DNA of 24,942 bases from a virus: IMG/VR virus record IMGVR_UViG_3300042526_000115, positions 1 to 24,942 of that record. One strand, written 5' to 3'. A model generated the notes under the pieces. The model had not been told where the DNA came from. It saw only the letters and a program-made list of their open reading frames with translations, and did not search any database. The position numbers were made by a program, and so were the translations under genes. Below are positions 5,557-9,491 of the stretch, piece after piece; within the stretch, counting starts at the first letter, position 1; every line of letters begins with the position of its first letter.

Positions 5557-5661
5557 GAAAATATTAAAAAATCCTATCATTCACATTGCCAATGTTGCGA
5601 CCGCAACGAGTGGACAAGCCTTTGTGTTTGATAGGTATTTTTATTATGGAAAAATTTAAAG
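5557..5661 (+). CDS. Possible 34-codon leader ORF overlapping HNH start
   Basis: ATG 5557 opens a 34-codon frame that runs through the leader hairpin and stops at TAA 5659-5661, 16 bases past the HNH start in another frame. If translated, ribosomes would melt the hairpin and could couple to the HNH start. It has no recognisable domain, and the same sequence is explained well by RNA pairing, so it may be non-coding. Confidence 0.2.
5567..5642 (+). ncRNA. Long structured 5' leader hairpin upstream of HNH gene
   Basis: One rod-like hairpin can be drawn by eye. Basal stem: 5567-5579 with 5629-5642, 13 base pairs with a single bulged U at 5636. Then a UU/UU internal loop; 5582-5585 with 5623-5626 (CACA/TGTG); 5586-5591 with 5611-5617 (TTGCCA/TGGACAA, one bulged A); and 5594-5598 with 5603-5607 (GTTGC/GCAAC) closed by a GACC loop. 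That is about 28 base pairs. The stem ends three bases before ATG 5646, so it would hide the ribosome-binding region. The segment is GC-richer than its surroundings, as structured RNAs in AT-rich genomes often are. The 3' strand is U-rich, so a transcription attenuator is an alternative. Not a known RNA family to me. Confidence 0.6.
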
Positions 5662-6203
5662 ATATTATTGGTTATGAAGGACTTTATCAAATTAGTAATT
5701 TAGGTAATGTTAAAACATTAAGAAAAATTATTAACAGAGGCGATAAAATGAAAACCTATTTTAGAAAAGAAAAAATGTTAAAACTTACTAACACAAACGG
5801 ATATTGGTATGTTAATTTATCTTGCAATGATGTTTTAAAAAGAATAAGCATTCACAGATTAGTTGCACTAAACTTCATTGACAATTTAGAAAATAAGCCA
5901 CAAGTAAATCATATTAATGGTATAAGAACAGATAATAGGGTTGAAAATTTAGAGTGGTGTACTGCAAGTGAAAATGTAAAGCACTCTTATAAAGTTTTAA
6001 AAAGAGTTCCATTTCCATTAGGAAAATTTGGCGCAAATAGCAATGTTTCTAAGTCTGTATCTCAGTATGATTTAAATGGAAATTTTATAAATAAATTTGC
6101 AAGTCAAAAAGATGCTGCTAAAAAAACGGGAACAAACAATCAATGTATATCATTATGTTTTAAAGGAAAAATAAAAACTGCAGGTGGTTTTACCTGGAAA
6201 TAA
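5646..6203 (+). CDS. HNH homing endonuclease (NUMOD4-HNH-NUMOD1)
   Basis: A 185-aa free-standing homing endonuclease. Residues 2-25 (Glu-Lys-Phe-Lys-Asp-Ile-Ile-Gly-Tyr-Glu-Gly-Leu-Tyr-Gln-Ile-Ser-Asn-Leu-Gly) are a NUMOD4 motif. Residues about 68-113 are the HNH nuclease, with His-Arg-Leu-Val-Ala, then Val-Asn-His-Ile-Asn-Gly and Asn-Leu-Glu-Trp-Cys-Thr-x-Ser-Glu-Asn. The C-terminal part from about residue 137 is a NUMOD1-type DNA-binding repeat ending Gly-Gly-Phe-Thr-Trp. I chose ATG 5646 because NUMOD4 starts there; an upstream in-frame start adds residues from the leader hairpin. The gene sits between the RecT-like gene and Gp157 with its own promoter, and is AT-rich and Lys/Asn-rich, consistent with a mobile insertion that breaks no neighbouring gene. 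Confidence 0.92.
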   Translation: MEKFKDIIGYEGLYQISNLGNVKTLRKIINRGDKMKTYFRKEKMLKLTNTNGYWYVNLSCNDVLKRISIHRLVALNFIDNLENKPQVNHINGIRTDNRVENLEWCTASENVKHSYKVLKRVPFPLGKFGANSNVSKSVSQYDLNGNFINKFASQKDAAKKTGTNNQCISLCFKGKIKTAGGFTWK

Positions 6204-6719: not shown

Positions 6720-6753
6720 GCCCATAGTTAGTAAAATAGCTATGGGCTTTATT
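6720..6753 (+). terminator. Intrinsic terminator after Gp157 gene
   Basis: GCCCATAG (6720-6727) pairs perfectly with CTATGGGC (6740-6747) over a 12-base loop, followed by TTTATT. It lies ten bases after the Gp157 stop and would end the early transcript before the origin-like region. Confidence 0.7.
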
Positions 6754-6990
6754 ATAACTACTCCGCAACGCTGCAACACATTGAGAGCCGAATTATTTAC
6801 AATATAGAATATAAAAAAATGGTAAAATATTATTTTTTAAATTTTTTGGGTTTCAATGTGGTAAAGTGTTGCAACCTGCATAGGAGTAAGCACACATTGA
6901 GCATTAAACTTGTTGCGGATTGTTGCGATGTGTTTTATTTGTTTATTACAATATTTATCTTTACATTTACAAACCGATTTTAAATAATAA
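6754..6990. other. Non-coding repeat-rich region, possible replication origin
   Basis: No gene is seen here. The pentamer GCAAC/GTTGC occurs at 6765-6769, 6773-6777, within the palindrome GTTGCAAC at 6868-6875, and at 6912-6916 and 6922-6926. CACATTGAG occurs twice (6777-6785 and 6893-6901). Between the clusters lies a very AT-rich stretch, 6791-6856, with runs of A and T. Iteron-like repeats around an AT-rich segment, immediately upstream of the primase-helicase gene, are what a phage origin would look like. An operator region is the main alternative. A weak -7-like TATCTTTA at 6956-6963 may serve the downstream leader. Confidence 0.35.
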
Positions 6991-7087
6991 TAGAATGATA
7001 CAGATTCTAATTAATAATATTGGCAGAAATGCCAACAACAAACCATCTACTTACTTGGCTGTATCCCTTGTAAGAGATGGTTTTGTT
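6991..7087 (+). ncRNA. Three-hairpin 5' leader of primase-helicase gene
   Basis: Three consecutive hairpins. H1: TAGAAT 6991-6996 with ATTCTA 7004-7009, 7-base loop. H2: TTGGCA 7020-7025 with TGCCAA 7030-7035, closed by a GAAA (GNRA) tetraloop. H3: 7037-7048 with 7075-7087, 12 base pairs with a bulged U at 7084; then a bulged A7049 and CTTAC 7050-7054 with GTAAG 7070-7074 around a 15-base loop. H3 ends ten bases before ATG 7098 and is followed by a T-rich run. The arrangement suits a cis-regulatory RNA (translational operator, riboswitch or attenuator). No known family recognised. Confidence 0.55.
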
Positions 7088-7097
7088 TTCTAATATT

Positions 7098-9491
7098 ATG
7101 ATAGTAACAATATACAAATCTCTCAAAGAGGTTACCAATGGCTTTCAACGTGATGTTAACTATGTCTTTGAGCGAATTAGGTCTGGTAAGTCACAAAAGT
7201 TAATTGAACAAATTCAAGCAGAAACTGATGAGGAAAAACAACAAGCATTAAAAAAAGAGTTACCTGCAATCAATTTTCAAGGTGTTTTCAAAGAACGAAA
7301 TGATAAAGGCATAAAGCAATTTAGCGGTTTGATGCCATTAGATTTTGATAAGTTCAAAGATAAGGCAGAAATGATTGCTTTAATGGATTCTTTGCGTGAT
7401 AATGAGTATGTGTTTGCAATGTTTATTTCGCCTCGTGGAAATGGCTTTAAATTGATAATTAAGATACCTTTAGATGGTGCATCAAACTACAAAGGTTATT
7501 TTGATTCTCTAAAGAACTATTTTGATTCAGATTATTTTGATGTTAGCAGTAGTAATATTAGTAGATTGTGCTACGAAAGCTATGACCCTAACATCTACAT
7601 TAACCCAAACGCATTAATTTATAACGAAGTTGAAGAACCAGAGTATAGTGACATAGGCACAATCACCCCAATATTTGCAATCAATTCTGATAACCGAATA
7701 ATTTCAAACCTTTTAACTTGGTGGAAGAAAAAGTATGGCAACACTAAAGGTAGCAGGAATACAAACCTATTCAAGTTAGCAATGGCATTGAATTGCTTTG
7801 GGATAGATAAACACGAAGCATTGAATGTGCTTAACGAATTTCAAGAAAGTGATTTCACGTTATCTGAAATTGAAACCTTATGCAAATCAGCCTATAAAAA
7901 GTCTGAAGTTCACGGAACAAGATTTTTTGAGGATAATGCCATTAAGTTTAAGATTGAGAAACAAGTTAGGCAGGGAAAATCTGCGAAAGAAATAATTAAA
8001 CTATTGCCAGATGTTGACCCCGAAAAAATTAATGAGGCATCAGAAACAATAAGAGAAAATATTGATGTTGAAGATTACTGGTCATTCGATGATAAAGGCA
8101 AATTTAAATTGTCACCACATAAGTATAAGTTTTGGCTGGAGAACAACAACTTTTCTAAATTTTTCCCAACGGAAAGCAAAACATTTACTTTTATTCAAAT
8201 TGACCAAAACCAAGTCGAAGAAACTAATGAAAAAAGAATAAAGGATTATGTGCTTAACAATTTAATGGAGCGCAAAGATATTGGCTATTCTCCGTACGAT
8301 TCAATGGCATCATCAACGAAAGCATTTAACATTGATTTTCTTGGTTTACTTGCATCTGCCAACATTAAGATTAAAGAGGATACGCAAGATGAGATATTTC
8401 TTTATTACAAAAATTGTGTTGTTAAAATTACAAAAGATAGCTTTGAAACTATTGACTACCTTGATGTTGATGGTTACGTTTGGAAAAACCAAATCATTGA
8501 TAGAGATTTTGCCATTAAAGACCATCACAATTCCGAATATAGAAGTTTTATATGGTATATTGCAGGGGAAAATAAACAAAAGTATAACACCTTTAAATCA
8601 GTTATAGGCTACCTTATGCATTCGTTTAAGACATCCGCTAATAATAAAGCAGTAATTTTGAACGATAGTGTAATAAGCGAAAATCCCAATGGTGGAAGCG
8701 GTAAAGGCTTATTTTGCAATGCTTTAAGTCACTTGAAAAAGGTTAGCAGTATTGATGGTAAAACATTTGATTTTAACAAATCATTTCCTTACCAAACAGT
8801 ATCAACTGATTGTCAATTATTAGTTTTCGATGATGTTAAAAAGAACTTTGATTTTGAGCGTTTATTTTCTTTGATTACTGAAGGAATAACCATCGAATAC
8901 AAAGGGCAGGATGCAATCAAATTGCCAGTGCAAAAGTCACCGAAAATAATCATCACTACTAACTATACAGTTGGCGGTGTTGGAGGAAGTTTTGAACGCA
9001 GAAAATTTGAGGTTGAATTATCTGATTACTTTAATGCTGCTAACACTCCATTAATGAAGTTTGGCAAACTACTATTCGATGAGTGGGATGATGATGAGTG
9101 GAGCAGATTTGATAATTATATGATTCAATGCGCCCAATATTACCTCAACAAAGGTTTGGTATCTGCTGAATTTGGAAACATTCACACACGCAAATTTATA
9201 AAGAACACATCTTTTGAATTCTACGAATGGACAAAAACACACGAAGTATTTAGCTTTAACGATAGACTTTCCAAGCGTGATAAGTATAACGAGTTTCTTG
9301 AAGAGTATCAAGATTTTAAGAAGTGGTTATCCCAAAAGAAATTTAAACAATGGCTTGAAAACTATTGCACATTTTATGACTATAAATATGCTGAAGGTAA
9401 TTCAACACCAATAGGCAGATGGTTTACCATTGAGAATGAATCTCAAATGTGGGAAGATTTAAGAAATGAAGAAAAACCAAATTTTCAATGA
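7098..9491 (+). CDS. Primase-helicase (BT4734-like N-domain plus SF3 helicase)
   Basis: A 797-aa replication protein. The N-terminal 200 residues resemble the BT4734/VirE-N family, related to archaeo-eukaryotic primases. They have Asp82-Phe-Asp84 in Met-Pro-Leu-Asp-Phe-Asp-Lys-Phe, a Ser-Pro-Arg-Gly-Asn-Gly-Phe-Lys strand at 111-118, and Ile-Ser-Arg-Leu-Cys-Tyr-Glu-Ser-Tyr-Asp-Pro. A linker with a PriCT-like helical segment follows (about 220-290). The C-terminal half is a DUF5906-type superfamily 3 helicase, with Walker A Gly-Gly-Ser-Gly-Lys536-Gly and Walker B Leu-Val-Phe-Asp578-Asp579, then an Ile-Ile-Thr-Thr-Asn sensor. It would prime and unwind DNA at the phage origin. I chose ATG 7098, after the leader hairpin; an in-frame ATG at 7077 lies inside the hairpin. 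Its TGA overlaps the next gene's ATG. Confidence 0.85.
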   Translation: MIVTIYKSLKEVTNGFQRDVNYVFERIRSGKSQKLIEQIQAETDEEKQQALKKELPAINFQGVFKERNDKGIKQFSGLMPLDFDKFKDKAEMIALMDSLRDNEYVFAMFISPRGNGFKLIIKIPLDGASNYKGYFDSLKNYFDSDYFDVSSSNISRLCYESYDPNIYINPNALIYNEVEEPEYSDIGTITPIFAINSDNRIISNLLTWWKKKYGNTKGSRNTNLFKLAMALNCFGIDKHEALNVLNEFQESDFTLSEIETLCKSAYKKSEVHGTRFFEDNAIKFKIEKQVRQGKSAKEIIKLLPDVDPEKINEASETIRENIDVEDYWSFDDKGKFKLSPHKYKFWLENNNFSKFFPTESKTFTFIQIDQNQVEETNEKRIKDYVLNNLMERKDIGYSPYDSMASSTKAFNIDFLGLLASANIKIKEDTQDEIFLYYKNCVVKITKDSFETIDYLDVDGYVWKNQIIDRDFAIKDHHNSEYRSFIWYIAGENKQKYNTFKSVIGYLMHSFKTSANNKAVILNDSVISENPNGGSGKGLFCNALSHLKKVSSIDGKTFDFNKSFPYQTVSTDCQLLVFDDVKKNFDFERLFSLITEGITIEYKGQDAIKLPVQKSPKIIITTNYTVGGVGGSFERRKFEVELSDYFNAANTPLMKFGKLLFDEWDDDEWSRFDNYMIQCAQYYLNKGLVSAEFGNIHTRKFIKNTSFEFYEWTKTHEVFSFNDRLSKRDKYNEFLEEYQDFKKWLSQKKFKQWLENYCTFYDYKYAEGNSTPIGRWFTIENESQMWEDLRNEEKPNFQ

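Follow-up and report, generated by a model that had tools for sequence, protein, structure and literature searches.

What does a densely folded leader do immediately ahead of a phage primase-helicase gene, and does it belong to that gene alone? The question is raised by the window, by which we mean the whole 24,942-nt stretch of viral DNA analysed here (IMG/VR record IMGVR_UViG_3300042526_000115, positions 1 to 24,942). A preliminary description of its letters had placed three hairpins, H1, H2, and H3, at 6991-7087, with H3 ending ten bases before ATG 7098; read directly, the sequence agrees on all three hairpins and on the spacing. The description had recognised no known riboswitch, and this holds: in the window and 23 related loci, Rfam 15 returned 0 matches at gathering score, and sub-threshold matches at E <= 1 stayed at chance level, the best (E 0.069 and 0.37) lying far under the cut-offs. 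A known riboswitch or ribosomal leader was rejected on this ground, and the motif is undescribed in the openly licensed papers searched.

THE WINDOW LEADER AND ITS SURROUNDINGS

The features of the locus are collected in Table 1. The loop of H1 is the exact complement of the loop of H3 at all seven positions, and because of this match the window leader is, by prediction, a kissing-loop pseudoknot, not three independent hairpins. By our count H3 comprises 18 pairs (AAC/GTT, AAACCATCT/AGATGGTTT, TTAC/GTAA, and GG/CC), interrupted by a single extra U and by an AC/G internal loop; the preliminary description gave 17 bp with bulged U and A. Folding of the RNA from 6971 to 7110 yields -32.3 kcal/mol versus -17.9 +/- 3.3 in shuffles (z -4.4; 0/200 as good).

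Table 1. Features of the leader locus (window positions unless another locus is named)
Feature	Position	Strand	Basis or remark
Intrinsic terminator of the preceding Gp157-type gene	6720..6747	+	upstream of the leader promoter
Alternative promoter box TATCTTTA	6956-6963	+	sequence
Promoter -7 box, Bacteroidota type, TACATTTA	6962..6969	+	sequence; promoter and start site predicted
H1, 5′ hairpin TAGAAT(6991-6996)-GATACAG-ATTCTA(7004-7009)	6991..7009	+	sequence and alignment of relatives; U-A to A-U compensatory change in L010 group
H1 loop GATACAG, 5′ strand of kissing helix	6997..7003	+	7/7 pairs to 7059-7065 in all 10 distinct relatives
H2, TTGGCA-GAAA-TGCCAA, GNRA loop; optional middle hairpin	7020..7035	+	sequence and relatives
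H3, 3′ hairpin bearing the kissing loop; base runs into U-tract	7037..7087	+	sequence, fold, and relatives
H3 loop CTGTATC, 3′ strand of kissing helix	7059..7065	+	alignment of relatives, pairing counts
U-rich tract at H3 base (TTTTGTTTTCT)	7081..7091	+	sequence; U enrichment directly after H3 across leaders
BT4734-like/PriCT_1 primase-helicase, first gene past the leader	7098..9491	+	Pfam PF08800 and PF08708
CGCCAAG/CTTGGCG leader family sites	L019 7183-7269; L023 1014-1091; L029 817-894; L038 7441-7516		

A TATATTTG box, the form seen in the nearest relatives, occupies the same alignment column in 10/10 relatives. An mRNA start downstream of H3 had been named in advance as an argument against a leader; the promoter box sits upstream of H1, and the start site is predicted from it. 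Just upstream of this promoter lies an origin-like region (6760-6935) with repeated GTTGC/GCAAC motifs and, within it, a 42-nt imperfect inverted repeat (6765-6806 / 6831-6872). In many related phages, L018, L040, and L059 among them, iteron-like repeats (AGGTACACATTTAGGTACAC / AGTACACTTTT) precede the leader promoter, 150-500 nt ahead of the primase. Farther away, the window encodes a free-standing HNH/NUMOD homing endonuclease (Pfam) that precedes the Gp157 gene (5643-6203) and, on the minus strand, a gene judged by eye to resemble a GIY-YIG-type endonuclease (131-1108); in relatives, leaders too can be followed by homing endonuclease genes.

CONSERVATION AND COVARIATION

A primase-helicase search gave 80 IMG/VR loci (L numbers), and the 170 nt preceding each start codon were read. 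In the family of the window (A2: the window and L002-L017), the named pairs are formed in 94.3% of cells, compared with 40-47% when their 3′ partners are slid by 1-3 columns, and covariation reaches 0.241 versus 0.086 in shuffles (0/500 as high). The kissing helix is kept in every aligned member, and one of its pairs shows a compensatory exchange (A-U to G-C) among the 10 distinct relatives; in H3, 7 of the 18 pairs are changed on both sides among relatives of the window. The L010 group carries GATGCAG/CTGCATC loops, and most of its H3 has been rewritten with compensatory changes. The exact motif of this family was found in 17 contigs, nearly all of them already-known loci of this primase, and the three new contigs also have it ahead of this primase.

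A second family (A3: L018, L023, L028, L045, L026, and others), unrelated to the window in sequence, has the H1 TTGG-AGTGGTAG-CCAA and an H3 loop that carries CTACCACT. Its kissing helix is 95% paired and contains three exchanges (G-C to C-G, U-A to A-U, and A-U to G-C), and its covariation is 0.362 versus 0.141 in shuffles (0/500). Pairing in homologous leaders, set beforehand as the point on which the element could fail, is conserved in both A2 and A3. At paired sites G-U outnumbers A-C 18 to 5 in A3 and stands at 4 to 4 in A2; the A3 excess favours a putative element that acts as RNA.

The GNRA loop (GAAA/GTAA/GCAA) is confined to the nearest relatives; the H2 loop of the L010 group differs, and other leader types have an unrelated middle hairpin (L118, L128, and the cultured phage FCL-2) or none. 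The special role first accorded to this loop is not supported, given its absence from the L010 group and from leaders without H2, and H2 with its tetraloop, being optional, was rejected as the core of the element.

A leader family with CGCCAAG/CTTGGCG kissing strands recurs in several contigs, either before or after the primase. Family B, distinct in type, lies ~95 nt ahead of the primase ATG in L040, L041, L049, L055, L056, L058, L061, L062, L070, and L072. Its GGGG/CCCC-type helix, which runs from the transcript start, is accompanied by a conserved linker GTTGTCGGAGGCATCCAC and a U8-9 tract inside the pseudoknot, beyond which AACAGTGAA pairs with the hairpin loop TTTTCACTGTT; covariation is modest with a simple alignment, and this family may have an aptamer-like core.

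A RECURRENT PLAN BEFORE MANY GENES

The leaders follow one plan: a TAnnTTTG box, an H1 with a 7-9 nt loop, an optional H2, a hairpin whose loop pairs with that of H1, a U-tract, and an ATG 2-24 nt on, a spacing due in part to selection, as the scan demanded <=40 nt from leader to ATG. In the usual form, TATATTTG is followed after ~10 nt by an H1 of 4-7 bp, a linker with or without H2, H3, the U-tract, and ATG; the usual H1 loop has 8 nt, one A or U plus the 7-nt kissing strand, and leader length is about 57-122 nt. The same promoter box stands 11-35 nt ahead of the 5′ kissing strand in all leader clusters.

A promoter-anchored script (promoter box, 5′ strand <=36 nt away, complement in the loop of a later stem) found 47 strong matches in 585 kb of related contigs versus 0 in shuffles, a comparison in which the shuffles were first-order Markov and the finder had been developed on part of the data later counted. 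Many contigs are close relatives, and clusters, rather than matches, are the proper count: 37 groups were obtained, two of which were dropped as implausible, leaving 35 sequence clusters. When the promoter was not demanded and only structure and an ORF start were used, 13/862 ORF starts matched versus 1, 1, and 3 with shuffled upstream regions, and each convincing non-coding match had a TAnnnTTTG-like box 11-35 nt before the H1 5′ strand. Loops pair over a mean of 7.4 nt with their own partner versus 3.8 nt between leaders.

The recognised functions of the genes that follow are mostly replication and recombination, along with RNA repair. By Pfam and PHROG they include the BT4734-like primase-helicase, ResIII/DEAD and Dda/PIF1-like helicases, a RecT-like annealing protein, RNA ligase, replication initiation, DNA methylase, and HNH and GIY-YIG homing endonucleases, besides several small genes without recognised function; there are no structural genes among those tested. 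Where another gene precedes the primase, the plan stays at the operon head (L023, L035, L036, L038, L045, L048, L071, and L073). One 44.8-kb relative (the contig of L076) has at least six units with different loops before different genes, and such different loop letters within one genome favour action in cis. The earlier view of a structured leader of the primase-helicase transcript is borne out, the element being conserved and placed in cis. The specific idea of autoregulation by the encoded protein fares worse and is disfavoured, because the same plan precedes helicase, RecT-like, RNA ligase, replication-initiation, and homing-endonuclease genes and is not confined to the gene of a binding protein.

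Outside the promoter, one clear module is conserved in sequence: an AGUA/GAA internal loop (loop E / sarcin-ricin type), found in 6/39 leaders versus 0.03 expected. In the six independent leaders that carry it (L019, L027, L071, L059:7714, L128:3498, and L158), it separates the outer H3 stem from the kissing loop.

The element is present in the cultured phages FCL-2, V175, elemoF/elemoA, and Harreka_1. In Flavobacterium columnare phage FCL-2, a complete H1-H2-H3 leader (37475-37596) stands before gp54, a PHROG replication-initiation protein. The related phage V175, 87% identical to it over the promoter and upstream sequence, carries the leader at that locus too, with GTAGAGAG/CTCTCTAC loops versus CATCCAC/GTGGATG in FCL-2; elemoF and elemoA have GTGGAGG/CCTCCAC versus TGAGAGC/GCTCTCA in 75%-identical regions, and Olleya phage Harreka_1 has GTGGTGG/CCACCAC. 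No single argument for the predicted contact is stronger than these orthologues, in which the loop letters have been replaced and the loops remain complementary. The element heads many replication genes in phages that infect Flavobacterium-type bacteria, a host assignment that for the metagenomic members is presumed from cultured relatives. No element was found directly upstream of the bacterial-MAG primase loci L107-L111 (primases 38-49% identical), and no convincing one in Flavobacterium phage 6H, in the parts of crAss001 and phi38:1 that were scanned, or as a primase leader in Polaribacter Leef_1, Bacteroides BT-TP2, Maribacter Panino, and MW202828.

TERMINATOR CHARACTER AND A PROPOSED MECHANISM

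The U-tract past H3 scores 3.06 versus 0.95 at the same distance in other 5′UTRs, with U itself part of the score; when U is left out of scoring, it still makes up 67-88% of the first four positions past H3. The intrinsic-terminator score of d'Aubenton-Carafa exceeds 0 in 19/35 leaders. A GC-rich hairpin with a U-tract between promoter and first gene, as expected of an attenuator, is a feature of the class; the H3 of the window copy scores as a weak intrinsic terminator, below threshold (d = -11).

The predicted leader structure is well supported. Comparison among relatives underpins the hairpins, the kissing helix, the order of promoter, leader, and gene, the U-tract, and the recurrence of the plan with different letters, all as read from sequence. 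As to function, we propose at about even confidence a cis-acting leader that gates expression of the replication gene, most likely as a transcription attenuator. Transcription would start just past the TAnnTTTG box, in an elemo phage at a site predicted 4-7 nt beyond TATCTTTG. H1 would fold first, and its loop would then capture the complementary H3 loop during transcription of H3, which would close directly ahead of the U-tract, 10 nt before the start codon. The hairpin clamped by the kissing helix would act as a promoter-proximal attenuator at which RNA polymerase is stopped or paused; in transcripts that pass it, the hairpin would occupy the ribosome landing area. The replication and recombination genes would in this way stay restrained until some factor alters the folding or overrides it. 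What we infer is that there is a block, by termination or at translation, together with its sign and the factor behind its release.

The attenuator is the leading reading for the class because of the enriched U-tract and the 19 leaders that pass the terminator score; for the window copy it is in real doubt, given d = -11. Three further points count against it: the kissing helix does not exclude H3, the U-tract of family B (L040 type) lies inside the pseudoknot and not after it, and the distance from H3 to ATG varies from 2 to 24 nt. No competing antiterminator fold is evident in the leader. More tentatively, and with confidence well short of even, one may imagine a phage-wide RNA regulon in which a single structure-reading factor, a protein or a polymerase component, recognises the kissing geometry irrespective of its letters and releases all replication-gene leaders together, the loops being kept different so that copies in the same genome do not cross-pair.

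ALTERNATIVE READINGS

A translational operator is unlikely, if a serious contender. The pseudoknot would be bound by a phage protein, possibly a replication protein, that blocks ribosome entry, as T4 gp32 does at the pseudoknot of its own mRNA (PMC3014915). The leaders do consist of pseudoknots followed by an A/U-rich start region, the genes downstream are mostly for replication and recombination, and a reader of shape could tolerate changing letters. The AGUA/GAA module, far above expectation, also counts in favour but is present in only part of the leaders; a U-tract directly past the hairpin would not be needed, and own-gene autoregulation misfits one plan before many unrelated genes.

The position of the leader directly after a promoter, as in HK022 putL (PMC9378689), and the start of the 5′ kissing strand near the predicted start site could instead point to a put-like or stabilising 5′ element, by which the polymerase is made terminator-resistant or the 5′ end of the mRNA is protected from decay. 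We consider this improbable: put sites share sequence, whereas these leaders vary freely in their letters, and a terminal hairpin with a U-tract resembles a stop rather than an antitermination site.

With its own promoter and terminator-like end, the unit might also be a separate trans-acting small RNA that ends at the U-tract of H3, the next gene being merely a neighbour. This is quite improbable, in that an ATG comes 2-24 nt past the end of the leader in 35 clusters (in a scan that demanded <=40 nt), and the loop letters, which vary from copy to copy within one phage, are already taken up by the kissing helix inside the leader, leaving no shared seed.

A leader-peptide attenuator, in which the frame 6995-7096 (MIQILINNIGRNANNKPSTYLAVSLVRDGFVF and a stop) is translated through the hairpins, draws on a frame, of 32 codons in the window, that is also open in the L008 and L010 groups and on another through H3 in L019; it is highly improbable and was rejected as a general mechanism, as ATG is depleted in the leaders (7/35 versus 17.5 expected) and a frame runs through H3 in only 3/35, and variation in the family of the window alters amino acids and keeps pairs. 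Single-stranded DNA origin or primase-loading hairpins, suggested by the adjoining GTTGC motifs and by GGTACAC repeats upstream of the promoter in relatives, are barely credible for an element with several copies per genome before different genes, a fixed order of promoter, leader, and ATG, and the G-U counts given above for A3 (even with A-C in A2).

COMPARISON WITH KNOWN SYSTEMS

Kissing loops are familiar in other regulatory RNAs. In ColE1 plasmids, fully complementary 7-nt loops of RNA I and RNA II kiss, and the Rop protein reads their shape, not their letters; unlike there, where two plasmid RNAs meet in trans, the contact here would lie within one leader. The expression platform of cobalamin riboswitches uses a kissing loop to link its regulatory hairpin, close to the ribosome site, with a domain farther upstream. 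The phage leaders likewise tie a kissing loop to a putative regulatory hairpin but have no conserved aptamer core and no Rfam match.

Among working analogues, the T4 gene 32 pseudoknot and HK022 putRNA come closest, but neither unites a kissing helix and a U-tract with recurrence ahead of many genes. T4 gp32 binds a pseudoknot at the 5′ end of its mRNA and spreads from there over an A+U-rich start region (PMC3014915). Like our leaders, this RNA places a pseudoknot in the 5′ leader for a phage replication gene, with an A/U-rich start region behind it. It differs in serving a single gene per phage and not being repeated before others, in the position of its pseudoknot 67 nt upstream of the start codon, and in having no terminator-like hairpin with a U-tract. 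HK022 putL, of about 70 nt and two stem-loops, lies downstream of early promoters (PMC9378689) and is similarly a promoter-proximal structured phage RNA; unlike our leaders, putRNA is conserved in sequence, suppresses termination, does not itself end in a U-tract, and has no kissing helix mentioned in PMC9378689. Single hairpins over the ribosome site block translation of the phage homing endonuclease genes mobE, segB, and I-TevI (PMC3014915). These too are leader structures ahead of HNH/GIY-YIG genes, whereas here a kissing pair with a U-tract is found, also ahead of replication genes.

IMPLICATIONS

Gene timing in phages of the Bacteroidota is little known; the RNA module described here is definable, heads their replication genes, and occurs in cultured phages. 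Seldom does a loop-loop contact come with so clear a natural experiment as these wholesale swaps of loop letters between sister phages, with complementarity kept. The module, absent from Rfam 15, lends itself to asking whether structure alone sets expression.
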